From Platanthera guangdongensis (taxonomy: Eukaryota > Streptophyta > Magnoliopsida > Asparagales > Orchidaceae), in contig CM077150.1 in NCBI GenBank assembly GCA_039583875.1, forward strand, positions 5,350,332 through 5,414,331: 64,000 nucleotides of DNA, given 5' to 3'. Shown in pieces: positions 46,225-63,558 of the stretch (its first letter is position 1; every line of letters starts with the position of its first letter). The notes under the pieces are model-generated. The model had not been told where the DNA came from. It did no database searches and saw only the letters and a program-made list of their open reading frames with translations. A program made the translations under genes and the position numbers.

Positions 46225-46932
46225 TGGACAACCTTGGGCTCGCGGGAGGCGGCTCAGGCAGCCAGGCGGAGAAGCTGGCGAGAGGGATTGGATAGGCGAG
46301 TGGGACCATGTGGTCCACTCGCAGAAGGCGAGACGGGTCTCGGCACTGTAGGTGAGACGTCCTCTAGGGCGCGGGCTGGCCCTTGAGGGTGCGATGACTC
46401 CCTTAAGACGGGAGGCCAGCGAGACGAACAGGTGGGCTCGTCTCGCCCGCTGGTCGTTTCCCCACTCGCCATATAGAAGGAAGGATGTTTTGACCTTCTT
46501 ACCCCCAAGGGGGATTTTACTCTTCTACCCCGAGTAATTTTACCCTTCTACCCTCGATGGTCTGCATATAGCCCTTCAGAACAGCGGAGTTTGGCTGTTG
46601 GCAGACCCAATCTAGGGTATTTTGGTAATTTCAGGTTGGTTCAGTATTGTTATTTGCAGATCAGACTCAGAGGCCTATAAATAGACCGATAAGGTGCCTT
46701 GAAGAGGTTGTTGAACCTTGTCATATTCTTCCTCAGAGGCACCTAGCTCAGCATTGGCTAGGGAGGGGAAGTACTTCAGATTCTTCCGGGTAAGAGGTGG
46801 GACCTCCGAGCTGAGACCATCGATCTGTTTCTGCTCCTGTGACTAACGTCGGGAGGGCGGTTCGAGAAGATTAAGTGTGTGCTGCAGCTTCAGGTCCGAA
46901 CTCTAGGTGGAACCGGGTGACTGGTTTCAACA
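46225..46932 (+). repeat. 5' LTR of the Tat element
   Basis: 708 bp from tggacaaccttggg to ggtttcaaca. A TATA-like cctataaatagaccg lies near 46673-46687, giving an R-U5 of about 220 bp. Confidence 0.9.
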
Positions 46933-46988: not shown

Positions 46989-48491
46989 ATGGCAGAAGGT
47001 CATGGAGAAGGAGAAGGAGACGGGTCAGATAACCCGGGAGGATTCGTTGGAAGAGAGGAGTTCATGGCGTCAATCAAAGGCATTATGGACATGCTGCAGG
47101 GGATCTCGCGACAGGGAGATTGTTCGACCCCTCTGCCTCAGGTGCCTGCTCTCGCGTCGTAGGAAGAGCTCGTCTCGGCAAGAGTGGGAGAAGATGCCCC
47201 AGGGAGGCGACCGAGGAAGGAAGTGATGGTGGAAGGAGGCGGGCGAGACATGGCGGGAAGGGAGTTGTTCCCGAGCCCCGCGAGCGCCGTCTCGCCAGGG
47301 GATATTGTCGCGCGAGTGGGGGCGGCGAGACCAGGGGCGAGAGGGTCGCCATTCTGCGAATTGATTCTGTCAGCTCCCGTCCCGGAAGGGTTCAGGGAAC
47401 CCGAGATGAACTATTATGTGGGGAAAGATGATCCCCTCCATCACCTGCAATGGTTCAAGAACGCGGTTTCGATCAGGCCGATGACGGACGCTTTCAAGTG
47501 CCGTCTTTTTGCCATCACTCTGAAGGACAAGGCTAGGGACTGGTTTCATCAGCTCCCGACAGGCTCGATATACAGCTTCGAGGACCTGAGCAGGAGCTTT
47601 CAGCTGCGTTTCTCAACTTCAAAGAAGAGGAAGAAGAACCCAGAGTCGATTTTTCTGATTAAGCAGAGGGCGGATGAGTCCCTAGCTCAGTATGTAGACA
47701 GATTTCAGGAGGAGATCTTGGATATTCAGGAGGTGCCTGGATTCGCCCTCCAGATGGCCTTTACCGTAGGACTACGGGAGAGCTTCTTCAAGATGAGCCT
47801 CACTCGGAAGGCGTCACTGTCCTTTGAGGGGTTGATGGAGAAGGCTGCGAAAGAAATAGCAATGGAGGCGGCGAATCCAGCTTTTGCAAAAAAATTGGCA
47901 AGACTGGCGGAAGTTGAGTCAAGAGAGCCAGGAGGAGGGAGACAGCAAGAAGGGAGGAGAAGAGAAGAGTCGAGGGCACCGGCGTACGAGGAGTTAGGAT
48001 GGAGGCAGCAGGGGGGCCCTGCCCAAGGGCAAGGGAGATGATTTCCACATGGAGGAAGGAACCAACCAGGAGGACTCAGAAGATTTAACCAGCATAGACC
48101 ACCCCTACCCCCGCCGTCGCAAGCTATGACCATCAGCCGAGGGAGAGGTAGAGGTCGACAGAGAGGAAGAGCAGGAGCAGGAGTTGGAAGGAGGAGAAAC
48201 CCTCAGGAGGGGAGGCGAGGGGAGGAGGTAGCGTTGTCATACTGTGACTTCCATGAGGAGGGTCACGCAACGGCTACCTGCCCAGAATTCTTGGAAATGA
48301 GAAGAGTTAGGGGAGCAGGAGAGCAGCAGAGGCCGGTACGGATAGCGGAGGTGACTGGGACCGGAGAGGAAGATCGATGTGTGGATCGAGCGGATGTAGG
48401 GGACCGAGGGGGAATTGGAGTGATCCATGGGGGGTGGGGATCGAGGCTGCCCGAAAGGCAAGCCTTCATACCATGTACCGTCGGAGCGTAA
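46989..48491 (+). pseudogene. Gag polyprotein (Tat)
   Basis: The start ATG at 46989 gives MAEGHGEGEGDGSDNPGG. An in-frame TAG at 47160 and a TGA at 48039 interrupt an otherwise single frame (ALAS*EELVSARV and GQGR*FPHGGRN). The capsid-like core (47400-47800) contains PEMNYYVGKDDPLHHLQWFK, LKDKARDWFHQLPTGSI and SFQLRFSTSKKRKKNPESIF. The end has an RG-rich segment (RGRGRGRQRGRAG) and a zinc-knuckle-like CDFHEEGHATATC, the C-x2-H-x4-H-x4-C variant I know from Tat/Athila gags. Without the two stops it would be about 500 residues. Confidence 0.85.
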
Positions 48492-49640
48492 CTTCGACGT
48501 CACAATCCCCTCCCCTGGATGAGAAGATCACCTTTTCAAAAAAGGACATGCCATACCATGAAGACCCCTTCTGTGACGCACTGGTGATCCGGACCGCCAT
48601 TGAAAATTTCACGGTATCGCGGATCCTGGTTGACAATGGAAACTCAGTAAACGTTATCTTCAAAAAGACGTTTAACGAGATGAGGGTGGAGGCCCGAAGG
48701 GTGCTGGAAGCAGATGGGCCATTGTTTGGATTCTCAGGAGAGAGGAAGGAAGTTGAGGGGGGAGTGGGACTCCAGGTAACCCTGGGGGGGCTATCCACGA
48801 ACTGTCGTTTTGTCATAGTGGATTCCCCCAGCAGTTACAATGTCATTGTTGGGTGCCCCTTGATCAGTGCTTTTAGATGTGTGTCGTGCTCTTTCCATCA
48901 ATGCCTGAAGCTCAATGCCGAAGGTACTCAAATCAGAGTAAGGGGAGACCCAAAGGCGGCCAGGGACTGCTACGTAACGGCAGTGAACACCATCTCATGG
49001 CAGGGAGAGGCCGAGGAGATGGGGAAGAGGATGGAACAATGGAAGCATGAGTTTGGTAGCGAAGCAGAGGAGAAGGAAGAAAAGGAGGTCGGAGGAGAAA
49101 GGGAGGTGGAGATGGTAGGAAGCATTGCGGTGGAGCCGGAAACGGCGGGAGAGAATGACGGAGAGATGGGGATGGAAGAGTAGAAAGAAAAAAAGGTCGG
49201 AGGAGAAAGGGAGGTGGAGATGGTAGGAGGCATTGCGGTGTGAGCCGGAAACGGCGGGAGAGAATGACGGAGAGATGGGGATGGAAGAGGAGAAAGAAAA
49301 AGAGGTCGGAGGAGAAAGGGAGGTAGAGATGGTAGGAGGCATTGCGGTGGAGCCGGAAACGGCGGGCGAGAAGGATGGAGAGATGAAGGTGGAAGAGGAG
49401 AGGGGGTCGAAGGAAGGCAAAGGGAGGAGGAAAGAAAAGAGAAAGATGGAGGAAGCAGGAGGGTTGCCCGGGGGGGAAGCCCGGCTGGAAAAAATAAGAA
49501 TTACACTACTGGAAGGAGGGAACACTAGCGAGCTGGAGATGGAGAAGCTTTGGGAAGAAATGGTGGTGACTGTTACGGATCGCGAGGCAACGAACCAGGA
49601 AGCCGGAGAACGGGGTATGCTGGGGGAGCAGGAGAAAGAA
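48492..49640 (+). pseudogene. Protease and acidic linker with 36-residue repeats (Tat)
   Basis: The protease region reads RILVDNGNSVNVIF near 48620-48660, with Asp kept and the D-x-G loop altered only at tolerated positions. It is followed by NCRFVIVDSPSSYNVIVGCP, the usual end of Tat proteases. Beyond it is a highly charged linker with three copies of a VGGEREVEMVGGIAVEPETA unit. The first copy ends in a TAG at 49181 and the second has a one-base insertion, so the frame is broken twice there. Confidence 0.75.
49088..49412 (+). repeat. Three 108-bp coding tandem repeats
   Basis: Units start at 49088, 49196 and 49305 (108, 109 and about 108 bp), each opening gtcggaggagaaagggaggt. A length of 108 is 36 codons, so the unit preserves frame when duplicated. 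The extra t in unit 2 (gcggtgtgagcc) breaks it. Confidence 0.9.
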
Positions 49641-51771
49641 GAGGAGCTGTCAAGGCTGAAGGCAGTCGTGGAGGTACTAGAGATGGAGTTCCTCACCAGA
49701 GAAGGAAGAAAAGTGAAGATAAAGGTCAGCGGCGAGCTCAGCCCAGAAGCCCAGGAGGAGATCAAGGCATGCGTGCAGAGGAATATTGACGTCTTCGCTT
49801 GGAGAGTGGCTGACATGCCAGGGGTCGATGCGGACGTGGCCTGCCACCGTCTCAACCTCGACCCAACACCCGCCCTGTGCAACAGAAGAAGAGGGTCATC
49901 GCCACTAAGATGGTCGGACTCATCAGAGAGGAGGTAGAAAAACTGCTTGAGGGAGGGTTTGTGTCTGCCTGTAAGTATTCGGGGTGGGTGAGCAATGTTG
50001 TAATGGTTAAAAAGGGGGAGGGTAAGTGAAGAATGTTTGTAGATTTCTCTCTCTTAAATAAAGTGTGCCCTAAGGATTGCTACCCTCTGCCTCGAATCGA
50101 CGCGCTGGTTGATTCAACCGTCGGTTTCTCACTAATAAGTTTTTTAGATGCGTTTTCAGGATACCACCAAGTACGCATGCACCCTCCGTACGTCAAGGAC
50201 GTCACCTTCGTCACGGAGGATGGATGTTTTTGTTTTAACATGATGCCCTTTGGGTTAAAAAATGGGGGGGCAACTTATCAAAAAATGATGGCTAGGATCT
50301 TCCGAGAGCAGAAGGGGCGGAACCTCGAGATTTATGTGGATGACCTGATGATCAAAAGCTGGGACCTCAGATCTCATGTCTTGGATCTTGAGAAGACCTT
50401 TGGAATCTTAAGAAAATATAAAATGAGGCTCAACCCCCTGAAATGCGTTTTTGGAGCCAGCAGGGGAAAGTTCATATGACATCTCCTTACCCCATCCGGA
50501 GTAGAGCCTAATCCCGATAAGGTAAAAGCAATCCTAGAGCTGGAATCTCCCAGGAATACCAAGGAAGTTCAACGTCTTACCGGCAAGCTGGCCGGACTAA
50601 GTAGGTTCCTCTCCCGAGCCGGAGAAAAATGCTCACCTTTCTTCCGGACGTTGAGAGGAGGTAAGAAGTTTGAATGGACCCCAGAGTACGAGGAGGCTTT
50701 TCAGGCTCTAAAGCAGCAGCTCACTCGGGCGCCTCTACTCCAGGGGCCGAGGGAAGGGGAGGTCTTGTTCTTGTATCTAGGAGTATGGACCGGGGCCGTG
50801 AGTTCGGTTCTCGTACGAGAGGAAGGAAAAAAGCAATTCCCGATCTATTACGTGAGCACGGTCCTAAAGAAGGCGGAACTCGGGTACCCCATCCTCGAGA
50901 AGCTAGCATTTGCCCTCATCATATCGGCAAGGAAGCTTAAGCCGTATTTTCAGACCCATTCGATTCAGGTGGTGATGGATCACCCCCTCCGTCGCATCTT
51001 GGAGGGGGTGGAGCACTCTGGGAGGTTGGCCAAATGGTCAATAGAGCTCAGTGAATTCGACCTCACTTTTACTCATCGGCTCGCCATCAAGGCACAAGCG
51101 ATGGCCGACTTCCTAGCAGACTACGTAGTGGAGATCCAAGAGGCTGAAGCACCCCCTCGAGCGGCTTGGAAGATGCTGGTAGATGGAGCGTCAGGAAAAC
51201 ATTCCTTTGGAGGAGGAATGATCTTAGTAAGTCCAGAGGGGACCAGAATTGAGCAAGCTTTGAAGATCCACTTCGCGATCACCAATAACCAAGCAGAATA
51301 CGAGGAGATCATCGCAGGGCTCGGGTTAGCTCGGGAGTTGGGCATACAAGACATTAGGGTCTCTACGGACTCTATGGTGGTTGCGGGCCAGATCAAAGGG
51401 GAGTTCGAAGCGAGGGAGCTCACCCTCCAGCTGTATCTAGGGAAGGTCAAAGACATTATCGGGCAGTTCCGCAGTTTTTCGATTCAACACGTCCCGAGGG
51501 AGGATAGTGCTCTGGGTGACCAACTCGAAAAATACGGCCCTCGGGCTGGGGGAACGACGACGAAGCTTTTCAGGCCGTCCATAGAAGAGGGGGAACTCAT
51601 GGAGATAAACCAGCAAGGGTCCTGGATGGATCCCTTCATCACGTTCTTGACCTCGGGACAACTTCCTGAGAGCAATCTCGATAAGAAGCGGGTCAGGTAC
51701 AAATCAGCGTACTACCTGTTGAAAGATGTGGCACTATACCGCAAGACGTTGTCGGGTCTGTTGGCTCGATG
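49641..51771 (+). pseudogene. Reverse transcriptase, RNase H and second RNase H-like domain (Tat)
   Basis: RT begins after LSPEAQEEIKACVQRNIDVF and ADMPGVDADVACHRLNLDP. It has breaks at about 49890 (frameshift) and 50030 (TGA after KKGEGK), then FVDFSLLNKVCPKDCYPLPR, FLDAFSGYHQVRM, MMPFGLKNGGATYQ and the intact IYVDDLMIKS loop (50330-50360). A further TGA lies at 50477. The first RNase H spans 50650-51110 (FEWTPEYEEAFQALKQQL, ILEKLAFALIISARKLKPYF, LAIKAQAMADFLADY). A second RNase H-like domain follows at 51160-51470: WKMLVDGASGKHSFGGGMIL, ITNNQAEYEEIIAGLGLARE and VSTDSMVVAGQIKGEFEA. This second domain is the marker of the Tat clade and keeps its acidic residues. Confidence 0.85.
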
Positions 51772-52877
51772 AGTATCTGAGGAGGAGGTTATGAGGGTCC
51801 TAGAAGAGATTCATTCAGGAGAATGTGGGAGTCACTCGGGGAGTCGGACTTTAGAGGGGAGAGTGTTGAGGCAGGGATACTACTGGCCTACCCTCAGGAA
51901 AGATGCAGAAGAATTCGCTAAAAGATGTCAAAAGTGACAGGAGTTCGCCCCCCATCCAACTCCTTCCCTCCCAGAGGCTACGAACAATCACGGCTCCCTG
52001 GCCCTTCGCGATCTGTGGGCTAGACCTGGTGGGTCCTTTTCCCCAGGCGAGTAGTCAGAGGAGGTTTCTATTGGTCATGGTAGATTATTTTTCAAAATGG
52101 CTGAAGGTGAAGGCGTTGGCCAAGGTGACATCGCAGGTGGTCAAAAATTTTGTATGGGGAGAGATCCTTTGCAGGCATGGGCTATCGCTGGCCATTGTGA
52201 CTGACAACGGACCACAATTTTCTAGTAGGGAATTCGTCGATTTTTGCATCCGTCTGGGCATAGATCTCTGTTTTGCTTCTGTTCATCATCCACGGAGTAA
52301 TGGACAGATGCAAGCAGCAAACAAGATCATCGTCAATCTTTTAAATAAGAAAGTGGAGAACCTAAGGGGGAGCTGGGTGGAACAGCTCCCTTCAGTTCTC
52401 TGGGCCTTGAGGACCACACCAAACACCGCCACGGGAGAGACCCCATTTAAGCTCTCTCATGGCTCAGAGGCCGTCATCCCAATAGAGTTCGAGGTCACAT
52501 CCCCAAGAGTAGTCGTTGCAAGGGAGGGAGACGAAGGATGGATGGAAGAGAAAGTGGAAGAGCAAAAACTCTCTCTTGATCTCGTGGAAGAACTCCGGGA
52601 CTTGACGCTGATCCGGCAAGAGGAAGTCAAGCGCCGGATGGCGAAATACTTTGATAAACATATAAGGATCAAGCAGTTCCAGAAGGGTAACTTGGTCCTC
52701 AAGAAGGTGGACGCAGCAGGCAGAGGGGCATCAGTAGGAAAGCTCAATCTCAACTGGGAAGGTCCTTTTGTAGTAAAAGAGGTCTTGAAGTCGGGAGGGT
52801 ACCACCTCCAGGATGTGGACGGGGTACCCCTCGATCGTGTCCGAAGTGGCGATGACTTAAAGAGATTTTATCCATAA
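51772..52877 (+). pseudogene. Integrase (Tat)
   Basis: The zinc-binding part (51775-51940) reads VLEEIHSGECGSHSG and RRQGYYWPTLRKDAEEF-like sequence, then a TGA near 51937 and a frame change. From 51903 in the new frame one open frame covers the core and C-terminus: AICGLDLVGPFPQ (first Asp), AIVTDNGPQFSSREF (second Asp) and RSNGQMQAANK. The catalytic Glu is replaced by Gln (caa at 52311-52313). The end has LVLKKVDAAGRG and GPFVVKEVLKSGGYHLQDVD and stops at 52877. There is no chromodomain, as expected for Tat. Confidence 0.85.
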
Positions 52878-53041: not shown

Positions 53042-55251
53042 TGTAACGACCTAAAATAAAAATCCGTATAAATGTTTTGAGAATATCCCCGATGATGAAA
53101 AGAGACATATTTTATGATCTTTTCCTTGCATGATGATTTTTATGGGTTGCCTTTTAAAATTATATGGACTTGTTTGATGTATATGTGGGCTATGTGCTTA
53201 TGGGTTGAACTATTATGGGTTGTTTTGTTTGTTGTGCAGGCTTGGTATGATGTGCTGGCTGAGTGTTGAAGTGCTGGCTTGGTGTGATGTGATGGCTGTG
53301 TTTTGAAGTGCTGGCTGGGTGTGTTGTACTGGCTGGAATGAGGTGCTGGCTGTTTTGGAAGAGCTGGCTGTGCTAGGTGTTGATTATGTGTATATTTGGG
53401 TTCGGTACTTAACATCTGGAGCGGTGGTTTGGCTGGACATTGTCGCTAGCCGCTGAGTTCACTGTTTAAATGTCGGGCCGATACTTCGTTCTCTCGCACT
53501 TCTGCTTCTGCGAATTTCGCGGCCTCCTTCTCCTCCTTCGTCTTTCTTCGGCTGCTCCTCTATGACAAAGAGGCATCTCTTCTTTATCTTCCTCTCCTGC
53601 TACTTCCTTCTCTGTGCCGAGCCATTTGAGTTGTCGTTGCTGTGCTCCCGTGCCGACGCTGCTTTGCCGCCGAGTCGCGTGCGCTGACGACTCTGCTGGA
53701 CCGATTAGAGCTGCTCTGTTTCCTCATCTTCTTTGCTGAGCTGTTGTAGCGTTGTTGCTGTTCCTTTCTTCTTCTGTTAGGGCTGCTGTTGTCGACCTCC
53801 TTTTGTTACTGCGTCAAGGTTCTCCCTCTTCTTCTCTGGCCGGTTATTTCTCTGCTTCTTTTTTTTTCTACTGCTACACCCGAGTATTACCTCTCCTATT
53901 TTTACAGTTGCTTCTCTTGCTGTCTCTGCTCCTGAGTTAGGGTTCCTGCTGCTCCTGAGCCTCTCCTGTGTAGCTGCTGCCACCACGAGGTTGCCGCCAC
54001 TTCTTGTAGCTGCTCCTGAGCTGCCGCCTCCCTGCTGCTTTTTCATTTGACTGGTTTAGTTTATGTGCTCTACTTGGGTTAATTTTTGGTTTTCATTTCT
54101 GATTTTGGGAGATTATGTTGTAAGCCAAGTTCAATTTTATGCGTTGTTGGACAATTGGATTAAGAGGACGGGAAGTCCATTTGGGGGGCTGGCTTTTAGC
54201 CCAATTTTGAGGTATATGACGAGTTGTCCGGCAAAGCATAAAGCTTTGGCATTTAATTGGTATTTTTGACTATTATTTAACTTTCCAATACAACTCTTGC
54301 GCCCCATGTTACAACGAGACGCAACCCAAGTTAAGATGCGTGTTATTTCAATGGTTCCCAAAGCTTAAAACTTTGAGGATGCCGTCCCGTGACAACCGTG
54401 ACATCCATGCGGCAAGGGATATGAATAAAGGAAAGAAAAGAGTGAGTATTTTATTTCTTGAAATTATGGGTATTCAATCATTTTGTCATATTTAATGTCT
54501 TTGAACAAACTTGCATGTGCATGAGTTTTTCCTTAAAGACATATCGCTAAAGAAATAAAGTGGGTGATGGGACAATTAAGCGATAATTATTCTGAGGGAA
54601 ATTATTTTATTAAAAACTCCTATTTACGCGGCAAGATAAAATTCAATTAAAGGTCTGCATGGGGAAATGTGATGGCTTCGAATCCGATGATGTGGAGGCA
54701 TCCACTGATGGATTCACCAGTAGGGGTGAGCCTACACTTACGTTCTTCGGGGGCGGGTCCCAATTCAGATGCATCACCGGAGCATTTCTCATTTTATGTA
54801 ACTAAAGTTAAGGGAATAATTTAAGGACTGATATTGAAAATAATCAAGTGACTAATTTTATTGTACTGTAAGCATATTGGTATCATCCATCTTGTTTGCA
54901 TGTATAACTGTTTCACGAAATTCTGTTCTCACATAGTCATAAATTTTTATAACTAACCCAGAGTGGACACATTTTTTTAGGAAGCAGGACCAACTCCAAG
55001 TGGAACGCGCAGGATCTTGGCAACTGAACTGGTAAAAGCACTAATTGAAGCCCGGGACTGGCATAGAGCTCGTTGTACTGGACCTATGTGTGTCTATTGT
55101 AATAAGTCTATATAGTATATGTAAATAATCGGTGTAAATAAATAAAAAGATGGAATAAAATTGTACTGTTCTTAAATATGTTGCGACTCTATTGACTCTC
55201 TGTTCAATTTCTGAAATCATTGGGAAGCCACGGAGATTTTGGGTCTTCACA
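53042..55251 (+). repeat. 5' LTR of the nested element
   Basis: 2,210 bp from tgtaacgacc to gggtcttcaca. It contains a minisatellite-like stretch of gtgctggctg motifs (53237-53390) and C/T-rich low-complexity sequence whose open frames are artefacts. Confidence 0.85.
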
Positions 55252-55254
55252 ACT

Positions 55255-55266
55255 TGGTATCAGAGC
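55255..55266 (+). promoter_or_regulatory. Primer-binding site of the nested element
   Basis: tggtatcagagc, 3 bp after the LTR. Confidence 0.9.
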
Positions 55267-55469
55267 ACGGTTCAGGTGTCAATAGAATATGCCGTAACAT
55301 AAATAGTACGAAAACATTGCATCTAAGTTACATTCATTGATAGGAACATGTCCAAGTCTATTCTAGCTGCCGCAGCCAACGCCGTCGAGAGAATCAAGAT
55401 GATCATGTCTATCAAGCAGCCACCAGATCCGAGGAGAGTGACAACGGGCATCAACAACCCCGACGTCCT

Positions 55470-56177
55470 TTGGATTTCGTGTTATCAATAGCCGAAGCTT
55501 TTAAGCTAGCTTTTCCTACGTTAGCCACTTTAGGACCCACACTTCCCCAAGAAAATCCTACTCCACCACATCAGCCACAACAACATCCAATGAACCCTTC
55601 GCCAAATCTCCCTCCTAGAGTAGAAGCTCTGACGCCCAAACACTGTCAAATGGACTTCGACCTTAAACAGTTTATGGAATTAAAAATACTGACGTTTGTT
55701 GGAGGCCTATCTCCCTTAGAAACAGTAGATTGGATACTGCGAATTGAAACAATCTTCTAAGTCATGTGTTGCCCAGAGGACCGGAAAGTTGAACTTTTGT
55801 CATTTGTGCTGGAGGGAACCGCGAAGCGTTGGTGGAACAACTTAGTCGCCACAAAATTTACGGGACGTAAAGCTGTGACGAAATGTGCCAAGTGTGGCAG
55901 AAATCACCGAGTTGAATGCTTGACTGGCGTTTGTTATTATTGTCGTGAGCCGGGTCACACAAAGAAGAATTGCCCAAAGCTCCGGAATAAAGCAATCAAT
56001 TCACAACCTCCACTGCAGCAGCAATTATATCAAATGCTTGCTGAATCATTCGCATCAGCACCATCACCAACGTCTGCACCAGTACCTGCACCTGCTCCTG
56101 TACCAGCCCCAACGCCACCCCAAGAAGGCCCAACTGATCGATTAGTTTTTCCCCGGGCTTATACCTATGGGAAATAG
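55470..56177 (+). pseudogene. Internally deleted gag of the nested element
   Basis: The frame begins near 55347 (a MSKSILAAAANAVERIKM-like start) and is clear from 55470. The gag core shows FVGGLSPLETVDWILRIETI, then after a TAA at 55758 CCPEDRKVELLSFVLEGTAK and RWWNNLVATKF. It jumps directly to two zinc knuckles, KCAKCGRNHRVECLTG and CYYCREPGHTKKNCPKL, and ends in a Pro-Ala-rich tail before a TAG. The central gag (between WW and the knuckles) is missing, and no protease or pol follows. It could be mobilised only by a relative. Confidence 0.8.
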
Positions 56178-56238
56178 GTTATGTTCCACATAGCATAGTA
56201 GTTTTCGGGGACGAAAACTCCTAAAGGAGGGTAGGATT

Positions 56239-57690
56239 TGTAACGACCTAAAATAAAAATCCGTATAAATATTTTGAGAATATCCCCGATGATGAAAAGA
56301 CACATATTTTATGATTTTTTTCTTGCATGATGATTTTTATGGGTTGCCTTTTTAAATTATATGGACTTGTTTGATGTATATGTGGGCTATGTGCTTATGG
56401 GCTGAACTATTATGGGATGTTTTGTTTGTTGTGCTGGCTTGGTATGATGTGTTGGTTGAGTGTTGAAGTACTGGCTTGGTGTGATGTGCTGGCTGTGTTT
56501 TGAAGTGCTGGCTGGGTGTGTTGTGCTGGCTGTGTTTTGAAGTGCTGGCTGGGTGTGTTGTGCTGGCTGGAATGAGGTGCTGGCTATTTTGGAAGAGCTG
56601 GATGTGTTAGGTGTTGATTATGTGTATATTTGGGTTCGGTACTTAACATCTGGAGCGGTGGTTTGGCTGGACATTGTCGCTAGCCGCTGAGTTCACTGTT
56701 TAAATGTCGGGCCGCTACTTCGTTCTCTTGCACTTATGCTTCTGCGAATCCCGCGGCCTCCTTCTCCTCCGTCTTCGTCTTTCTCCAGCTGCTCCTCTAC
56801 GACAAAGAGGCATCTCTTCTCTATCTTCCTCTCCTGCTACTTCCTTCTCTGTGCCGAGCCACTTGAGCTGTCGTTGTTGTGCTCCCGTGCCGATGCTGCT
56901 TTGCCGCCGAGTCGCGTGCGTCGACGACTCTGCTGGACCGATTAGGGTTGCTTTGTTTCCTCATCTTCTTTGCTGAGCTTCTGTAGCGCTGCTGCTGTTC
57001 CTTTCTTCTTTTGTTAGGGTTGCTGTTGCCGATCTCCTGTTACTGCGTCAAGGTTCTCCCTCTTCTTCTCTGGCCGATTATTTCTCTGCTTCTTCTTGTT
57101 TTTCTACTGCTACACCCGAGTATTACCTCTCCTGTTTTTACAGTTGCTGCTCTTGCTGTCTCTGCTCCTGAGTTAGGGTTCTTGCTGCTCCTGAGCCTCT
57201 CCTGTGTAGCTGCTGCCACCGCGAGGTTGCCGCCACTTCTTGTAGCTGCTCCCGAGCTACCGTCTCCCTGCTGCCTTTTTCATTTGACGGGTTTAGTTTA
57301 TATGCTCTACTTGGATTAATTTTTGGTTTTTATTTTTGATTTTGGGAGATTATGTTGTAAGCCAAGTTCAATTTTATGCATTGTTGGACAATTGGATTAA
57401 GAGGACAGGAAGTCCATTTGGGGGGCTGGCTTTTAGCCCAATTTTGGGGTATATGACGAGTTGTCCGGCAAAGCATAAAGCTTTGGCCCTTAATTGGTAT
57501 TTTTAATTATTATTTAACTTTCCAATACAACTCTTACCCTCCATGTTACAACGAGACGCAACCCAAGTTAAGATGCGTGTTATTTCAATGGTTCCCAAAG
57601 CTTAAAACTTCGAGTATGGCGTCCCGTGATAACTGTGACATCCATGCGACAAGAGATATGAATAAAGGAAAGGAAAGAGTGAATAAAGGA
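56239..57690 (+). repeat. Truncated 3' LTR of the nested element
   Basis: It matches the first about 1,450 bp of the 5' LTR and lacks the last about 760 bp. It has one extra copy of a 38-bp tgttttgaagtgctggctg-containing unit relative to the 5' LTR (56480-56570). Confidence 0.85.
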
Positions 57691-57714: not shown

Positions 57715-58668
57715 AACTCACTCGGTGGTTGGTGATGGTTTGGAGAGGAGACCCCGAGCAGACCAGCTGACCAGACTCTCATCTAGCTGGCAGGGTTGTA
57801 GGCTCACTCGGTGGTTGGAGATGGTTTGGAGAGGAGACCCCGAGCAGACCCGCTGACCAGGCTCTCATCTAGCTGGCAGGGCTGTAGGCTCACTCGGTGG
57901 TTGGAGATGATTTAGAGAGGAGACCGCGAGCAGACCCGCTGACCAGGCTCTCACCTAGCTGGCAGGGCTGTAAGCTCACTCGGTGGTTGGAGATGGATTA
58001 GAGAGGAGACCCCGAGCAGACCCGCTGACCAGACTCTCATCTAGCTGGCAGGGTTGTAGGCTCACTCGGTGGTTGGAGTTGGTTTGGAGAGGAGACCCCG
58101 AGCAGACTCGCTGACCAGACTCCCACCTAGCTGGCAGGACTGTAGGCTCACTCGGTGGTTGGTGATGGTTTGGACAGGAGACCCTGAGCAGACCTGCTGA
58201 CCAGGCTCTCACCTAACTGGCAGGGTTGTAGGCTCACTCAGTGGTTGGAGATGGTTTGGAGAGGAGACCCCGAGCAGACCCGCTGACCAAACTCTCATCT
58301 AGCTGGCAGAGCTGTAGGCTCACTCGGTGGTTGAAGATAGTTTGGAGAGAAGACCCCGAGCAGACCCGCTGACCAGGCTCTCATCTAGCTGGCATGGCTG
58401 TAGGCTCACTCGGTGGTTGGAGATAGTTTGGAGCGGAGATCCCAAGCAGACCCGCTGACCAGGCTCTCATCTAGCTGGCAGAGCTGTAGGCTCACTTGGT
58501 GGTTGGAGATAGTTTGGAGCGGAGACCCCGAGCAGACCGGCTGACCGGGCTCTCATCTAGCTGCCAGGACTGTAGGCTCACTCGGTGGTTGGAGATGATT
58601 TGGAGAGGAGACTCCGAGCAGACCCGCTGAGCAGGCTCTCATCTAGCTGGCATGGTTGTAGGTTCACT
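57715..58668 (+). repeat. 86-bp tandem array (about 11 units) in the Tat 3' region
   Basis: Units open ggctcactcggtggttgg, continue with agaggagaccccgagcag and acccgctgaccaggctctca, and end tagctggcagggctgta. The spacing is 86 bp throughout, with a few substitutions between units. A partial unit lies on the other side of the nested element (52992-53041). Known biology: the 3' UTR of Tat-lineage elements is hypervariable and can seed satellite repeats. Confidence 0.92.
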
Positions 58669-59192
58669 CGGGGGCAAGTCAAGTGGTAGGAGCTCACTAA
58701 GAAAGGTGTCTATACTTATTAGGGAATTGGTAGAGGGTTCTTATGAAAAGGAAGGATTGGAGGCAATACAAGTGAGGATGAGCATTTCAGACCGGCGCTC
58801 GGTGAGGGTGGTCTCGCTCACAGCGAGCGGGTATTCACTGTCAGAGGCACAGGTCTCGCATAAGAAGGGGGACTTATCATGAAGAGTGGTTTGATCTCCA
58901 AGGTCTACCCGTGTTGGGTTCATCTCGCGACGAGACGAGGGCAAAAGGCTAGATGGTCTCGCGTTCGGCAGTGGCGAGGAGAAGTCCAACGATTAGCGCT
59001 CTGAACTAACTCTCAAGCGAGATGGCAATAGATAAAGCAATGAAATAAGAAAGAGCGAAAAGTTATTAACAAAAATCTCCTTGTTCATTACAAAAATAAA
59101 GGAGGGAGGTATCCCCATGAAACATCACTATCAGAAAAGTTTACAAGTACAAGAGACAAAAAGGGGGGCAATCTCAAGACTCTGACACCCCT
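58669..59192 (+). other. Non-coding spacer between the array and antisense gene 1
   Basis: No protein is seen. It contains the terminator side of antisense gene 1, whose stop codon is at 59195-59193. Repeated gtctcgc phrases are shared with the antisense genes and LTR. Confidence 0.5.
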
Positions 59193-61146
59193 TCACTCCT
59201 CGTCACTGGAGGTAGAGCTGTCATCCGTCTCGCCATATAGCTGGGGGACCAAGTCGCGGACCGTGACCGTCTCGACATCGTCCCTGACAACCCCCAGCTC
59301 CTTCATCATCTTCAGGACGAGCTCGGCTGTCTTGATATTAGCGTCTCGGCAGATGGCGTCGACCTCGTCCAAAGAGTAATGAGTTGGCGGGGATCTTGGA
59401 ACGGATCTGAGTGAGAATGAAGCACGGTGTTGTCCAGGAGACTGGCGTTCTCAACCTTCAATTTCTTGTTCTCCCCCTCCAAAGCCGCAATACGCGAGCG
59501 CATTCGATTGGCCGTCTCGGCATCCTGCGAGAAGGCTATCAGTCAACAAAAGTTCATGTAGAGCTAGCAGGTGAAACTGGCGAGTGGCAGTTAAAAAGCT
59601 TACCACGTCGCCCTGGCTTCGGGCGAGAAGGTTGTCAGCGACTGCCAGCAGCTTCTCGAGGTCATTTGACTTCTCGCGTTCCGCAGCAAGGCTGGTCTCG
59701 GCCTCCTTCCACTTCTTGTTATTGAAGACAAGACGACGCGAGATTCGATGCGAGAGCTCCATGGAGCGAAATTGGGCGTGAGCAGACTTCAAGACGAGGT
59801 CTCGCGACAGCTCGTTGTCGAAGGGCTCAGCTCCAGGACCACCATAAAGCCCATACCCGAGGGAGAAGGCATGACTGGTGGGCGGGTCTTGCTCCTTCCA
59901 GGAGGGAAGGAGAGAGGACACCGACACGCGATTGGAGTCCTTCTCCCACAAAAGTACCGGCTCGTCGGCGGCGTCGTTCACCACGGGCCCCATATTATAA
60001 TTCGGATGCGAGGCGGGGGCCGGGCGGCTGGAAAAACCAGCTTCGCGAGGGGGAAGCTCGGTGGGCTGGGCAGAGGTGGTGGCGGTTCGGTCAGGTGGGG
60101 CCATCTCGCGGGCAGGCGAGACGGCTTGATGGCGAGGTGAGGGAGATCTTTCCACAGAAATGGGGGTCAGAGACCCCAACATTTCCTTCCTTTCCTTGGG
60201 AGCAGCTCCTTTTTTCTCCTTTGGGAATGACACAGCCATTTTCATCTTCTTCTTTGGGCTATGCCGAGAGGTAGCGGCATCGTCCCCAGACCTTTTCTTC
60301 GGGGCGGGAGTCAGCGTTTCCTTTGCTGCCTCTGCCGCCATGTTGGCAAGGGCGAGACCCTTGTTGCTCAGGTAAGGGGAATGGACGGGGATAGTCCTCT
60401 CTCCTGAGCAAGAAAACGGTTAGAATGAAACAAGAAGACGGTAAGCATAATATTAAGAGGGCACGAGTATACCTTCACCGGGGAGGACGGGATGGAGCGA
60501 GTCGAGATCTCGCTGTAAGTAATTGACTTCAAAATTTTTCTCCATGAATAAGTCGCGGAGAGCCTTTTCAGCACCCCCAACCTTGGCGGCCTCGTAGTAC
60601 ACCTCGGCAGGCGACACCGGGGCGAGAGGGACGCCTCCCAGGTTCCCGCGAATGAAGACAAAGCGGGTGAGCCCGTGGTGGTTCTTATTAGGCGTCTCAC
60701 ACACCTTCAGACCCTGGCCGGTGAAGTAGGAGACGCCATCGTCTTTGGCGTGGTAGACGAACAACTTGCGGAAGACAGTAAGACTGAACTCGATGCGCTC
60801 GCGGCGCAGGTAGCTGGCGAAAGCGACCAACATCGAGACGGCGTTTGGGTTGAGCTGTGCGGGGACAACGCCGAAATATTTCAAAGCTTGTTTTACCTCT
60901 GGCCAGAGGGGGAGTCTTAGTCCCGCCTCGAAGTGCGAGACAGGGAAGGCGAGTTTCGCTGGAGTAGAAGGTGTTAATCGCCTCGCCGACCTTTGGCGGG
61001 CGAGACTCATACCCCTCAGCCAGGAACTCGCTGGCGAAGCGGTTGTAATCCTCTTCGGAGATTCTGCCGGGAGGGAAGTCGTGGTCGGCAAATCGCCTTC
61101 CGCAGCGGCTGCGGCCCTCGCCTTCTTCTACTCTCTTCTTCCCCAT
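59193..61146 (-). pseudogene. Antisense gene 1 of the Tat element (putative gypsy-type transposon protein), intron-containing
   Basis: On the strand opposite gag-pol, an ATG at 61146-61144 opens MGKKRVEEGEGRSRC. The frame shifts by one base near 60964 (INTFYS to AKLAFPVSHFEAGL) and continues with RLPLWPEVKQALKYFGVVPA, QLNPNAVSMLVAFASYLRRE and FVFIRGNLGGV. This matches the 'putative gypsy type transposon' domain (Pfam PF04195) as I know it. Two introns preserve frame: 60472-60404 (gtatac..cag, 69 bp) and 59603-59525 (gtaagc..cag, 79 bp). Exon 2 is Pro/Lys-rich with PKKRSG and SPKKKMKM (possible nuclear localisation signals), then helical. Exon 3 is a coiled coil (RIAALEGENKKLKVENASLL). It ends EDSSTSSDEE-like before TGA after another frame change. 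Its own TATA box is at 61306-61299. The role in the element is unknown. Confidence 0.75.
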
Positions 61147-61298
61147 GGCGAGCGAGACGACGGAAATAGAAGGGGATAGAAAAGAGAGGTGGAAGCGGGA
61201 CGCGAGAAGAGGTAGGCGAGGAGGAGCAGGCGAGAACTCTGGATCTCGGCAGCAGCAGGAAGCGATAGCGCAAGTGTAGAGCTTCTGGATCCGGGGGG

Positions 61299-61306
61299 TA
61301 TTTATA
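61299..61306 (-). promoter_or_regulatory. TATA box of antisense gene 1
   Basis: tataaata on the minus strand, 153 bp upstream of the ATG, with a ctctatctgc context and a purine/pyrimidine-rich flank. It suggests transcription independent of the LTR. Confidence 0.6.
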
Positions 61307-61689
61307 GCAGATAGAGAGAGAAGAAAAATGGGCGGGAAAGTGAGAAGGCAGAAGCCGAAGGGGCAACCCGACGGTTCATCTTCTCTCTCTCTCCTGACCC
61401 CGAGGCGCGGAACGCCGTGGCGACTTTTCCGATGAGCCAAAAAAAAAGTAGATTAATTAACACAGCTTTAATGAAAACCCAGCATGAAAGAGGTTGACAA
61501 AAATATCATAATAAAATATCATTATTTTGTCCTGCACGAAGCGGGCATCTCGTCCAAGGGGATCTAAATAACAAATTAATAATTAAGCAGGCGGGAGACC
61601 GATCAATACACAACAAAGTTACAAAGAAGCATTAAACAGGCGAGACGCTTAAACAGGCGAGACGAAGCCAAGACCCCTCAATTCTTGTG

Positions 61690-62634
61690 TCACTTCCAAT
61701 GGCCACCGCGAGATCCCGCGCATGGAGGGCGACTAGGTAGATGAAAGGCGCGGACGACGTCTAGACCGCGGCGCGCGAGACGGAGATGTTGGTCAGTCTC
61801 GCTTATGATGGCCTGGGGGTTTGTCTCATCTATTACAGCGTCGGTATCGACCACGGCAGAGAGGCGAGCGCACTCAGTTTCCAGCCAGTCAATGCGCCGA
61901 TCGGTAGCTTGCTTCTCCCGTTCCATCTCGCGGATGACGTGAGTGTATTTTCGAAACATCCTGGCCGTCCGGCGCTTCATCTCCAGAGGATCCATGTGAT
62001 CACCCAGGTAGTCTTCGATCTCATCTGGGCGAGGAAGAGGCGAGAGGGGAGACGGCGCGGGGGAATCCTCAGTACCCGAGTCAAACTGGATACCTGCGTA
62101 ACAAAAAAGTGGAAGATCATAATGAAGGGTGGTCTCGCAAGAAGGCTAGCCCGGTGGTCTCGAATGTGCCCGGTAAGGGAATAGGAATCTGTGTGAAGCG
62201 AAAGGACGGGATGAGTTTACTTACTTGGGATGCGAGAGTTCCCCACAAGCCACGAGAGGTCTTCTTTCCTCGTGGTAAGGGGGTGAGGATTCCTGAGGCG
62301 AGTCGGAGCGTTGATAATGTTGGTCGGTAACGTCAAGAGGGTTCGCAGGCATGGGGGAATCAGCGAGGTTTCCCTGAAATAGCATGGTCAATAGGCGAGA
62401 CGATACAAGAAAAGAGAGGCGAGAGGAGAAGTCAAGAATCACCTGTCTCTCCCCAGAGGACGCGGGAGGAAGTGTATCGGCTGTCGAAGGTGCCGAAGTG
62501 GTCGCGCCGGTCGATAATGGAGGGCCGGCGGTTTTTGTCTTCTTCGGGCGAGACGATGAAGGTGCTGAAGCGGGGGTGCGGACCAGAGATGGGACCAGGG
62601 CAGCCACATTGGCTTTATTTTGCTTCCGAACCAT
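61690..62634 (-). pseudogene. Antisense gene 2 of the Tat element, basic coiled-coil protein
   Basis: It opens at 62634 with MVRKQNKANVAALVPSLVRT and a SSSRPKKTKTAGPP nuclear-localisation-like stretch. A 69-bp intron (62442-62374, gtgatt..cag) leaves the frame intact whether spliced or not. A second intron (62224-62094, gtaagt..cag, 131 bp) joins exon 2 to FDSGTEDSPAPSPLSPLPRP, but the phase fits only another frame of exon 2, so an indel or alternative structure is likely. The last exon is a coiled coil (MFRKYTHVIREMEREKQATD, RRIDWLETECARLSAVVDTD) and ends GGHWK. I recognise no enzyme motif. A TATA box lies at 62740-62733. Confidence 0.6.
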
Positions 62635-62732
62635 TGCGAGACGCTCACGAAAGCTCTAGCTATGAGACATATTGAGGGTAGAAGAAAGGTGGAAATGAGA
62701 AAGGGGGCACTCCATGATGCGGTAGGGTCTCA

Positions 62733-62740
62733 TATTTATA
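62733..62740 (-). promoter_or_regulatory. TATA box of antisense gene 2
   Basis: tataaata on the minus strand about 100 bp upstream of the ATG at 62634, just inside the 3' LTR boundary. The layout mirrors antisense gene 1. Confidence 0.6.
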
Positions 62741-62834
62741 GACTCCGGGGGAGGGCCCGCCAAAGATTCTCATAAATGAACCCCAATGCCGCAAGTCTCG
62801 GTTGAATTTTCTTTCCGAGTTTGGGGCAACCTCG

Positions 62835-62850
62835 AAAAGAGCGGGGATTG
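62835..62850 (+). promoter_or_regulatory. Polypurine tract of the Tat element
   Basis: aaaagagcggggattg immediately precedes the 3' LTR. Confidence 0.7.
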
Positions 62851-63558
62851 TGTACAACCTTGGGCTCGCGGGAGGCGGCTCAGGCAGTCAGGCAGAGAAG
62901 CTGGCGAGAGGGATTGGATAGGCGAGTGGGACCATGTGGTCCACTCGCAGAAGGCGAGACGGGTCTCGGCACTGTAGGCGAGAAGTCCTCTAGGGCGCGG
63001 GCTGGCCCTTGAGGGCGAGATGACTCCCTTAAGACGGGAGGCCAGCGAGACGAGCAGGTGGGCTCGTCTCGCTCGTTGGTCGTTTCCCCACTCGCCATAT
63101 AGAAGGAAGGATGTTTTGACCTTCTTACCCCCAGGGGGGATTTTACTCTTCTACCCCGGGTAATTTTACCCTTCTACCCTCGGTGGTCTGCATATAGTCC
63201 TTTAGAACAGCGGAGTTTGGCTGTTGGCAGACCCAACCCAGGGTATTTTGGTAGATTCAGGTTTGTTCAGTATTATTATTTGCAGATCAGACTCAGAGGC
63301 CTATAAATAGACCGATAAGGTGCCTTGAAGAGGTTGTTGAACTTTGTCATATTCTTCCTCAGAGGCACCTAGCTCAGCATTGGCTAGGGAGGGGAAGAAC
63401 TTCAGATTCTTCCGGGTAAGAGGTGGGACCTCCGAGCTGAGACCATCAGTCTGTTTCTGGTCCTGTGACTAACGTCGGGAGGGCGGTTCGAGAAGAGTAA
63501 GTGTGTGTTGCAGCTTCAGGTCCGAACTCTAGGTGGAACCGGATGACTGGTTTCAACA
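62851..63558 (+). repeat. 3' LTR of the Tat element
   Basis: 708 bp from tgtacaaccttggg to ggtttcaaca, a close copy of the 5' LTR with scattered substitutions. Confidence 0.9.

Follow-up and report, generated by a model that had tools for sequence, protein, structure and literature searches.

The window analysed here, a stretch of 64,000 nucleotides (nt) of the orchid Platanthera guangdongensis (contig CM077150.1, positions 5,350,332 to 5,414,331, forward strand), contains a Retand-type Tat (Ty3/gypsy) retrotransposon which probably carries an accessory module between pol and its 3' long terminal repeat (LTR). The module would be composed of two minus-strand genes, each with a probable TATA promoter: the PF04195 gene (gene 1, 61146-59193) with two introns, and gene 2 (62670-61690), probably with one or two. 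The initial annotation, made from the sequence alone, had proposed a pair of separate antisense genes, and this proposal is borne out by the conservation of both units, by purifying selection on both and by their conserved TATA boxes. A lack of conservation of gene 2 or of the introns in the family, which that annotation had named as evidence against its proposal, was looked for in 29 copies and did not occur.

The comparison set consists of these 29 other copies of the element family, all from the same genome, and a second set of 20 fetched gene-2 loci from this genome represents the diverged subfamilies. Both genes are also annotated in Platanthera zijinensis, from which the proteins or gene models P0001, P0025 and P0026 derive; P0010 is a Platanthera gene model.

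Selection on the two reading frames and their linkage

Variants among the 29 copies and the window were classed in the window's codons, without a consensus, as private (in one sequence, mostly decay after insertion) or shared (in at least four sequences, mostly older than insertion). In gene 1 the private variants comprise 672 nonsynonymous and 279 synonymous changes and the shared ones 143 and 177 (odds ratio, OR, 0.34, p 1.7e-16), while the frames shifted by one and two give OR 1.14 and 1.19. Gene 2 has 295 nonsynonymous and 108 synonymous private changes and 62 and 59 shared ones (OR 0.38, p 1.2e-5), against OR 0.85 and 1.94 in its shifted frames. As the related copies share history these p-values are optimistic, but the shifted frames have the same history without the effect. 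The depletion persists at thresholds of 3, 6 and 8 sequences and without CpG sites (for gene 2 in exons 1 and 3), and the shifted-frame controls of these tests have a lowest OR of 0.69 (p 0.051), several being above 1.

Median pairwise ratios of nonsynonymous to synonymous substitution (dN/dS) are 0.25-0.37 in the gene 1 exons (0.37 and 0.33 in exon 1, 0.34 in exon 2 and 0.25 in exon 3) versus 0.94-1.44 in the shifted frames, and 0.48 each in exons 1 and 3 of gene 2 versus 0.78-1.12. For exon 2 of gene 2 the median is 0.63 in the frame of exon 1 and 0.48 in that of exon 3. Shared insertions and deletions (indels) number 0.28 and 0.64 per 100 nt in the exons, 2.0 and 4.0 in the introns and 4.7 between the genes. 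Both reading frames have been under purifying selection in lineages ancestral to the copies.

Linkage of the two genes extends to diverged subfamilies. A PF04195 part is found on the same strand 530-740 bp downstream of gene 2 in 18 of the 20 diverged loci, and was not found downstream of it in the other two. Genome-wide, a first look with P0025 gave 44,353 candidates, of which at least 60 were scored as gene-2 places, and at least 150 PF04195 places were scored, the best of which has 76% identity to P0001. By reading of the table, a stop lies inside the matched part in only 7 of 150 scored PF04195 places, which suggests that many relatives have an open exon 1. All 24 relatives of the PF04195 part among the matches listed are annotated from Platanthera.

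Exons, introns and promoters

Exon 1 of gene 1 (60473..61146, minus strand, as all features of both genes) encodes the PF04195 (Transposase_28 or TRP28) domain at 60756..60941. The PF04195-like domain read by the initial annotation is upheld by the profile match, which scores 39.6 bits against a curated cut-off of 26.2 (E 6.1e-10). The exon is followed by intron 1 (60404..60472, 69 nt; GT in 28/29 and AG in 23/29 copies), exon 2 (59604..60403), with a basic stretch and, by reading, a helix-like C-terminal part, intron 2 (59525..59603, 79 nt; GT in 26/29 and AG in 28/29 copies) and exon 3 (59193..59524). The 322-codon stop-free run of the gene was reached in none of 1,000 shuffles. In the window the first 65 codons (MGKK...) do not share a frame with the PF04195 part, the break falling between about 60962 and 60945, whereas P0001 is single-frame; exon 3 switches frame between about 59432 and 59408, whereas the last exon of P0026 is in one frame. 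In view of these two breaks the window's gene 1 is broken as a whole. Of the two frame-keeping introns which had been claimed for it, the splice pairs and the local frame therefore stand (intron 1 keeps the frame, and intron 2 enters the expected frame of exon 3, short of the final stop), and a single open frame in this copy does not.

The other copies add to this picture. In each of the six copies whose exon 1 is open and in phase, intron 1 contains an in-frame stop. With splicing, the reading frame of gene 1 runs through to the final stop (about 600 codons) in 2/29 copies; without it, 28/29 copies meet a stop at or before codon 241, in many cases because of earlier damage of their own, and one at codon 504. 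Intron 2 is 79 nt long in 17 copies, 83 in eight, 77 in three and 4 in one, and the first three lengths are not multiples of three. The exon lengths, divided by three, leave a remainder of 1 for exon 1 in 18 of the 29 copies, of 2 for exon 2 in 15 and of 0 for exon 3 in 22; these remainders add up, in agreement with a three-exon gene. Fourteen of the 20 diverged loci extend to the end of the PF04195 part, and nine of these have a GT..AG pair joining to EGE[RK].[ILV]P; among the other five the donor GAAGGT is kept in four, as judged by eye. P0010 is spliced at the point of intron 1, while P0017, P0020 and P0023 read through it and have the same start of exon 2. On this comparative evidence the predicted introns of gene 1 are well supported, and its full reading requires splicing.

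Gene 2 is less sharply defined. Exon 1 (62443..62670) begins with an ATG at 62670, kept in 24/29 copies, and has a second ATG at 62634, kept in 22/29; here an in-frame stop follows at 62658-62656, an early stop common to 4/29 other copies. Putative intron 1 (62374..62442, 69 nt) has GT in 24/29 and AG in 28/29 copies, and since it is open in frame in the window, splicing at this point is not forced. Putative exon 2 (62225..62373) is weak and its frame unsettled. Putative intron 2 (62094..62224, 131 nt), whose length varies among copies, has GT in 28/29 and AG in 25/29 and is bounded by the top-ranking donor among 175 in the region and the top-ranking acceptor among 226. Exon 3 (61690..62093), encoding a long predicted helix, has its stop at 61692-61690 in the window, and most copies continue for a few codons. 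In the window this early stop and a frame break interrupt the gene, and no single frame from exon 1 to exon 3 results from its two best splice pairs. As a protein query, exon 3 alone had no match among 52 candidates, and a longer joined query matched P0025 (54% over 129 residues) and P0026 (66% over 106), both ungapped; P0025 also covers the N-terminal part of gene 2. That N-terminal part is found in 19/20 diverged loci. Among these 19, it differs in frame from exon 3 in 14 and shares one open frame with it in a single locus, which fits introns or decay between the two parts. The GT..AG pairs for the one or two introns of the initial annotation are thus present, and gene 2 probably has one or two introns, with junctions that are placed only tentatively.

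The annotated protein P0025 (741 amino acids, aa) contains gene 2 twice, as almost identical units in head-to-tail order, which looks like a duplication inside a single element or like two adjacent copies. Gene 2 has no Pfam match above cut-off, and a Tropomyosin match of P0025 is weak and below cut-off. AlphaFold predicts a helix at residues 35-84 of the gene 2 model, with block means of the predicted local distance difference test (pLDDT) of 81-97 over residues 31-80. Of the coiled coils that the initial annotation saw in both genes, the predicted long helix of gene 2 remains; of the Lys-rich parts, the KKK/KKMK motif of gene 1 holds, being kept in 27/29 copies.

The four GT..AG pairs (60472-60404, 59603-59525, 62442-62374 and 62224-62094) are all present in the window. 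A scan for donor-acceptor pairs 60-200 nt apart found five pairs on the antisense strand and none on the sense strand (mean of 300 shuffles 0.34, none of which reached five), but this result is supportive only, because the scores are built on general base frequencies and the cut-offs were chosen with the sites already known, just below them. Four of the five pairs are the four introns above, which hold ranks 1, 3, 5 and 6 both among the 175 donors and among the 226 acceptors. The fifth, within the PF04195 exon, has an acceptor that is kept in 2/29 copies.

Each gene is probably started by its own putative TATA promoter. The TATAAATA box of gene 1 lies at 61299..61306 and is identical in 23/29 copies; the gene 2 box, at 62733..62740 and some 110 bp away from the 3' LTR, is identical in 20/29. 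Within 58800-62848 (4,049 bp) neither strand has a TATAWA match other than these two TATAAATA boxes, and in 300 dinucleotide shuffles of this region TATAAATA occurs 0.017 times on average, two being reached in none. TATAAA[TA]A is present at the matching place in 19/20 diverged loci for gene 2 and in 16/20 for gene 1. That two minus-strand frames lie downstream of TATA boxes of their own, as had been noted initially, is thus sustained (boxes at 61306 and 62740, ATGs at 61146 and 62634).

Apart from the way in which the splice thresholds were chosen, a number of results weigh against a pair of spliced, protein-coding genes. The splice dinucleotides are kept in a mean of 26.25 of the 29 copies versus 22.3 for the intron interior, a moderate excess, and 113 of 10,000 random sets match their conservation. 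The exon 2 phase required by the proposed joins of gene 2 is present in 7/29 copies, and the gene is open for at least 200 codons in only 2/29. Nor is its length remarkable, 47.6% of 1,000 shuffles having a stop-free run of at least 151 codons. Taken alone, gene 1 exon 3a has OR 0.45 (p 0.13) and gene 2 exon 2 has OR 0.71 (p 0.57) in the frame of exon 1 and 0.44 (p 0.13) in that of exon 3. Shared exon indels are multiples of three in only two of five per gene. Only 5/29 copies keep the basic KKTK motif in gene 2, so that this part of the claimed Lys-rich signals is not supported, and an a/d heptad pattern was no better than in shuffles for either gene, in what is a crude test. Finally, the structure model of the PF04195 part (P0001 and 24 further sequences; pLDDT 80.8, predicted template modelling score 0.81) is without a structural relative in the PDB or among viral models; the DNA binding predicted by another program (Vicient 2025, PMC11963269) is therefore neither confirmed nor denied.

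Alternative explanations and known antisense genes

The location of both genes on one strand, 530-740 bp apart in 18/20 loci, would also suit a single antisense gene, in which gene 2 is a decayed upstream exon or 5' leader of the PF04195 open reading frame (ORF) and the whole is one alternatively spliced unit, and P0026 indeed fuses the third exon of gene 2 to the last exon of gene 1. However, P0026 translates the last bases of intron 2, so that the fusion may reflect a deletion, and exon 3 of gene 2 does not end at any of the region's 15 best donors. P0025 has its two gene-2 units without a PF04195 match, gene 2 has a selected frame of its own, and the separate TATAAATA box between the genes is conserved as described. 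We consider a single gene unlikely.

Somewhat less probable again is that the antisense RNA itself is functional, as double-stranded RNA giving rise to small interfering RNAs or by interference with reverse transcription, and that the proteins are incidental. Antisense transcripts of retrotransposons are capable of such action (PMC7264820; PMC12786077), but the frame-specific purifying selection on both genes shows that the proteins mattered; an added role of the RNA remains compatible with it. That the genes were captured from the host, or are remnants of a different mobile element, and play no part in the family as it is today would suit an origin which PMC7264820 and PMC11963269 call unknown or unresolved, but is very improbable in view of the numbers of gene-2 and PF04195 places in one genome, their linkage, the selection at family level and the lack of a clear host-gene relative among the protein matches listed, in searches which reach close relatives only. 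P0010 is annotated as a hydrolase with the PF04195 part fused on.

Under the preferred reading of two spliced accessory genes, the introns would survive retrotransposition through their antisense orientation: the sense genomic RNA would hold only their unspliced complement, and introns in sense orientation would be lost. The proteins probably act in the nucleus, gene 1 perhaps on DNA or chromatin through its PF04195 domain and gene 2 as a helical partner or a second regulator. By analogy with the spliced antisense proteins of the human T-cell leukaemia virus (HTLV) type, the products could modulate transcription, silencing or integration of the element, or they may counter silencing, which has been reported for Vandal DNA transposons (PMC11728184). 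A broader proposal, which we put forward tentatively and which may well go too far, is that Retand elements generally carry a two-gene spliced antisense module, whose products would form a nuclear complex regulating or protecting the element, whose introns would be invisible in sense RNA, and of which surveys limited to ORFs would have missed gene 2 and the splicing.

Parts of this arrangement are already known, namely antisense PF04195 ORFs, further antisense ORFs and, in Grande, an antisense gene with its own promoter. Vicient (2025, PMC11963269) finds antisense PF04195 ORFs in 97% of the clusters studied of recent Retand elements and reports 104 antisense ORFs of at least 600 bp in 63 clusters, 57 of them with TRP28, together with tandem arrays in about half of the clusters and Smc-like and other extra domains. 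In the face of these 104 ORFs, which mean that many elements have more than one, the novelty claimed by the initial annotation was overstated. The Retand ORFs of that survey resemble the genes described here in PF04195, in antisense orientation, in their place between pol and the 3' LTR and in the tandem arrays often nearby. They differ in being unspliced ORFs of at least 600 bp, the word intron being absent from the main text, whereas the exons of gene 2 measure only 149-404 nt and are without a Pfam match; paired spliced genes with two TATA boxes were not found described in the available text of that paper.

In Grande, gene23 lies antisense in the 3' internal region, has a promoter of its own and encodes a nuclear protein (cited via PMC7264820); in these respects it is alike, but it is one gene and not two. 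The Silene Retand element has two extra ORFs, ORF3 and ORF4, the latter with PF04195, and a tandem repeat (PMC7264820, PMC11728184), a likeness by description only. In bean, PvRetro13 (ORF2) and 14 other families have, between pol and the 3' LTR, an ORF that runs against the polyprotein and is SMC-like in some (Gao 2014, PMC4093653); location and sharing among families are alike, but there is one such ORF per family and introns are unmentioned in the text available. HBZ/APH of HTLV is a spliced antisense gene near the 3' LTR encoding a nuclear regulator (PMC10186651). Unlike the present two genes with TATA boxes in the internal region, HBZ, which belongs to the bZIP proteins, is read from the 3' LTR, and no bZIP match above cut-off was found in six ORFs of the window or in five relatives (bZIP_2 in P0026 is below cut-off, E 0.52).

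The apparent novelty lies in the pairing and splicing of the two genes, together with selection on the protein of each. No report of such a module was found in literature titles and abstracts, a coverage from which subscription papers are mostly absent. The role of the Retand antisense proteins has been called unknown (PMC7264820, PMC11963269), and a 2020 review calls for the study of antisense and spliced transcripts (PMC7264820). A linked partner and introns offer concrete handles, since they define mRNAs and two proteins which can be tested jointly, and surveys of unspliced ORFs may undercount such genes. If the reading is true, antisense introns surviving retrotransposition would be a natural demonstration that orientation shields introns from loss.

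The host element and its surroundings

The host element is delimited by a 5' LTR at 46225..46932 and a 3' LTR at 62851..63558 (both plus strand, 708 bp long and with TG..CA ends), the latter immediately preceded by a purine-rich tract. The LTRs are 95.9% identical, with 29 mismatches, and the target site duplication AATGT is present on both flanks. On the plus strand are found a gag-like ORF of 292 aa (47163..48041), named by reading of its translation, the reverse transcriptase part of pol (50030..50479; RVT_1, E 1.5e-20), RNase H and a second, Tat-type RNase H (50480..51772; RT_RNaseH_2, RT_RNaseH, RVT_3) and the integrase (51870..52877; rve, E 4.3e-12). The reverse transcriptase part terminates at an in-frame stop at 50479, which marks this copy as decayed. 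The domain order RVT_1, RT_RNaseH, RVT_3, rve, with the second RNase H (aRH) between RNase H and integrase, is the order of reverse transcriptase, RNase H, aRH and integrase given for Ogre and Retand (Neumann 2019, PMC6317226).

Downstream of the integrase follow a nested LTR element, an 86-bp tandem array (57717..58671, 11.1 copies, by repeat search), the antisense region and the 3' LTR. The internal region measures 15.9 kb, or about 11.3 kb without the nested element, and both this corrected length and that of the LTRs are inside the Retand range (LTR 315-1,194 bp, internal region 7.4-12.9 kb; PMC11963269). The element also has the antisense PF04195 ORF between pol and the 3' LTR that is expected of Retand.

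The nested element (plus strand, about 53042..57682) was recognised by direct repeats and a gag with a zinc knuckle (zf-CCHC); no pol was seen within these bounds. It sits inside the 86-bp array, with a repeat-like flank on both sides, and its LTRs are 5.3-5.6% apart versus 4.1% for the outer LTRs, so that it looks no younger than its host. A second tandem repeat, of 109 bp and 3.1 copies, lies at 49070-49401 within the pol region ahead of the reverse transcriptase; its unit is not a multiple of three and gives Glu-rich repeats in one frame. Outside the element, the segment 20500-43400 contains several degenerate polyproteins, Ty1/copia-like by reading, with stretches that are about 70% alike and in the same orientation.

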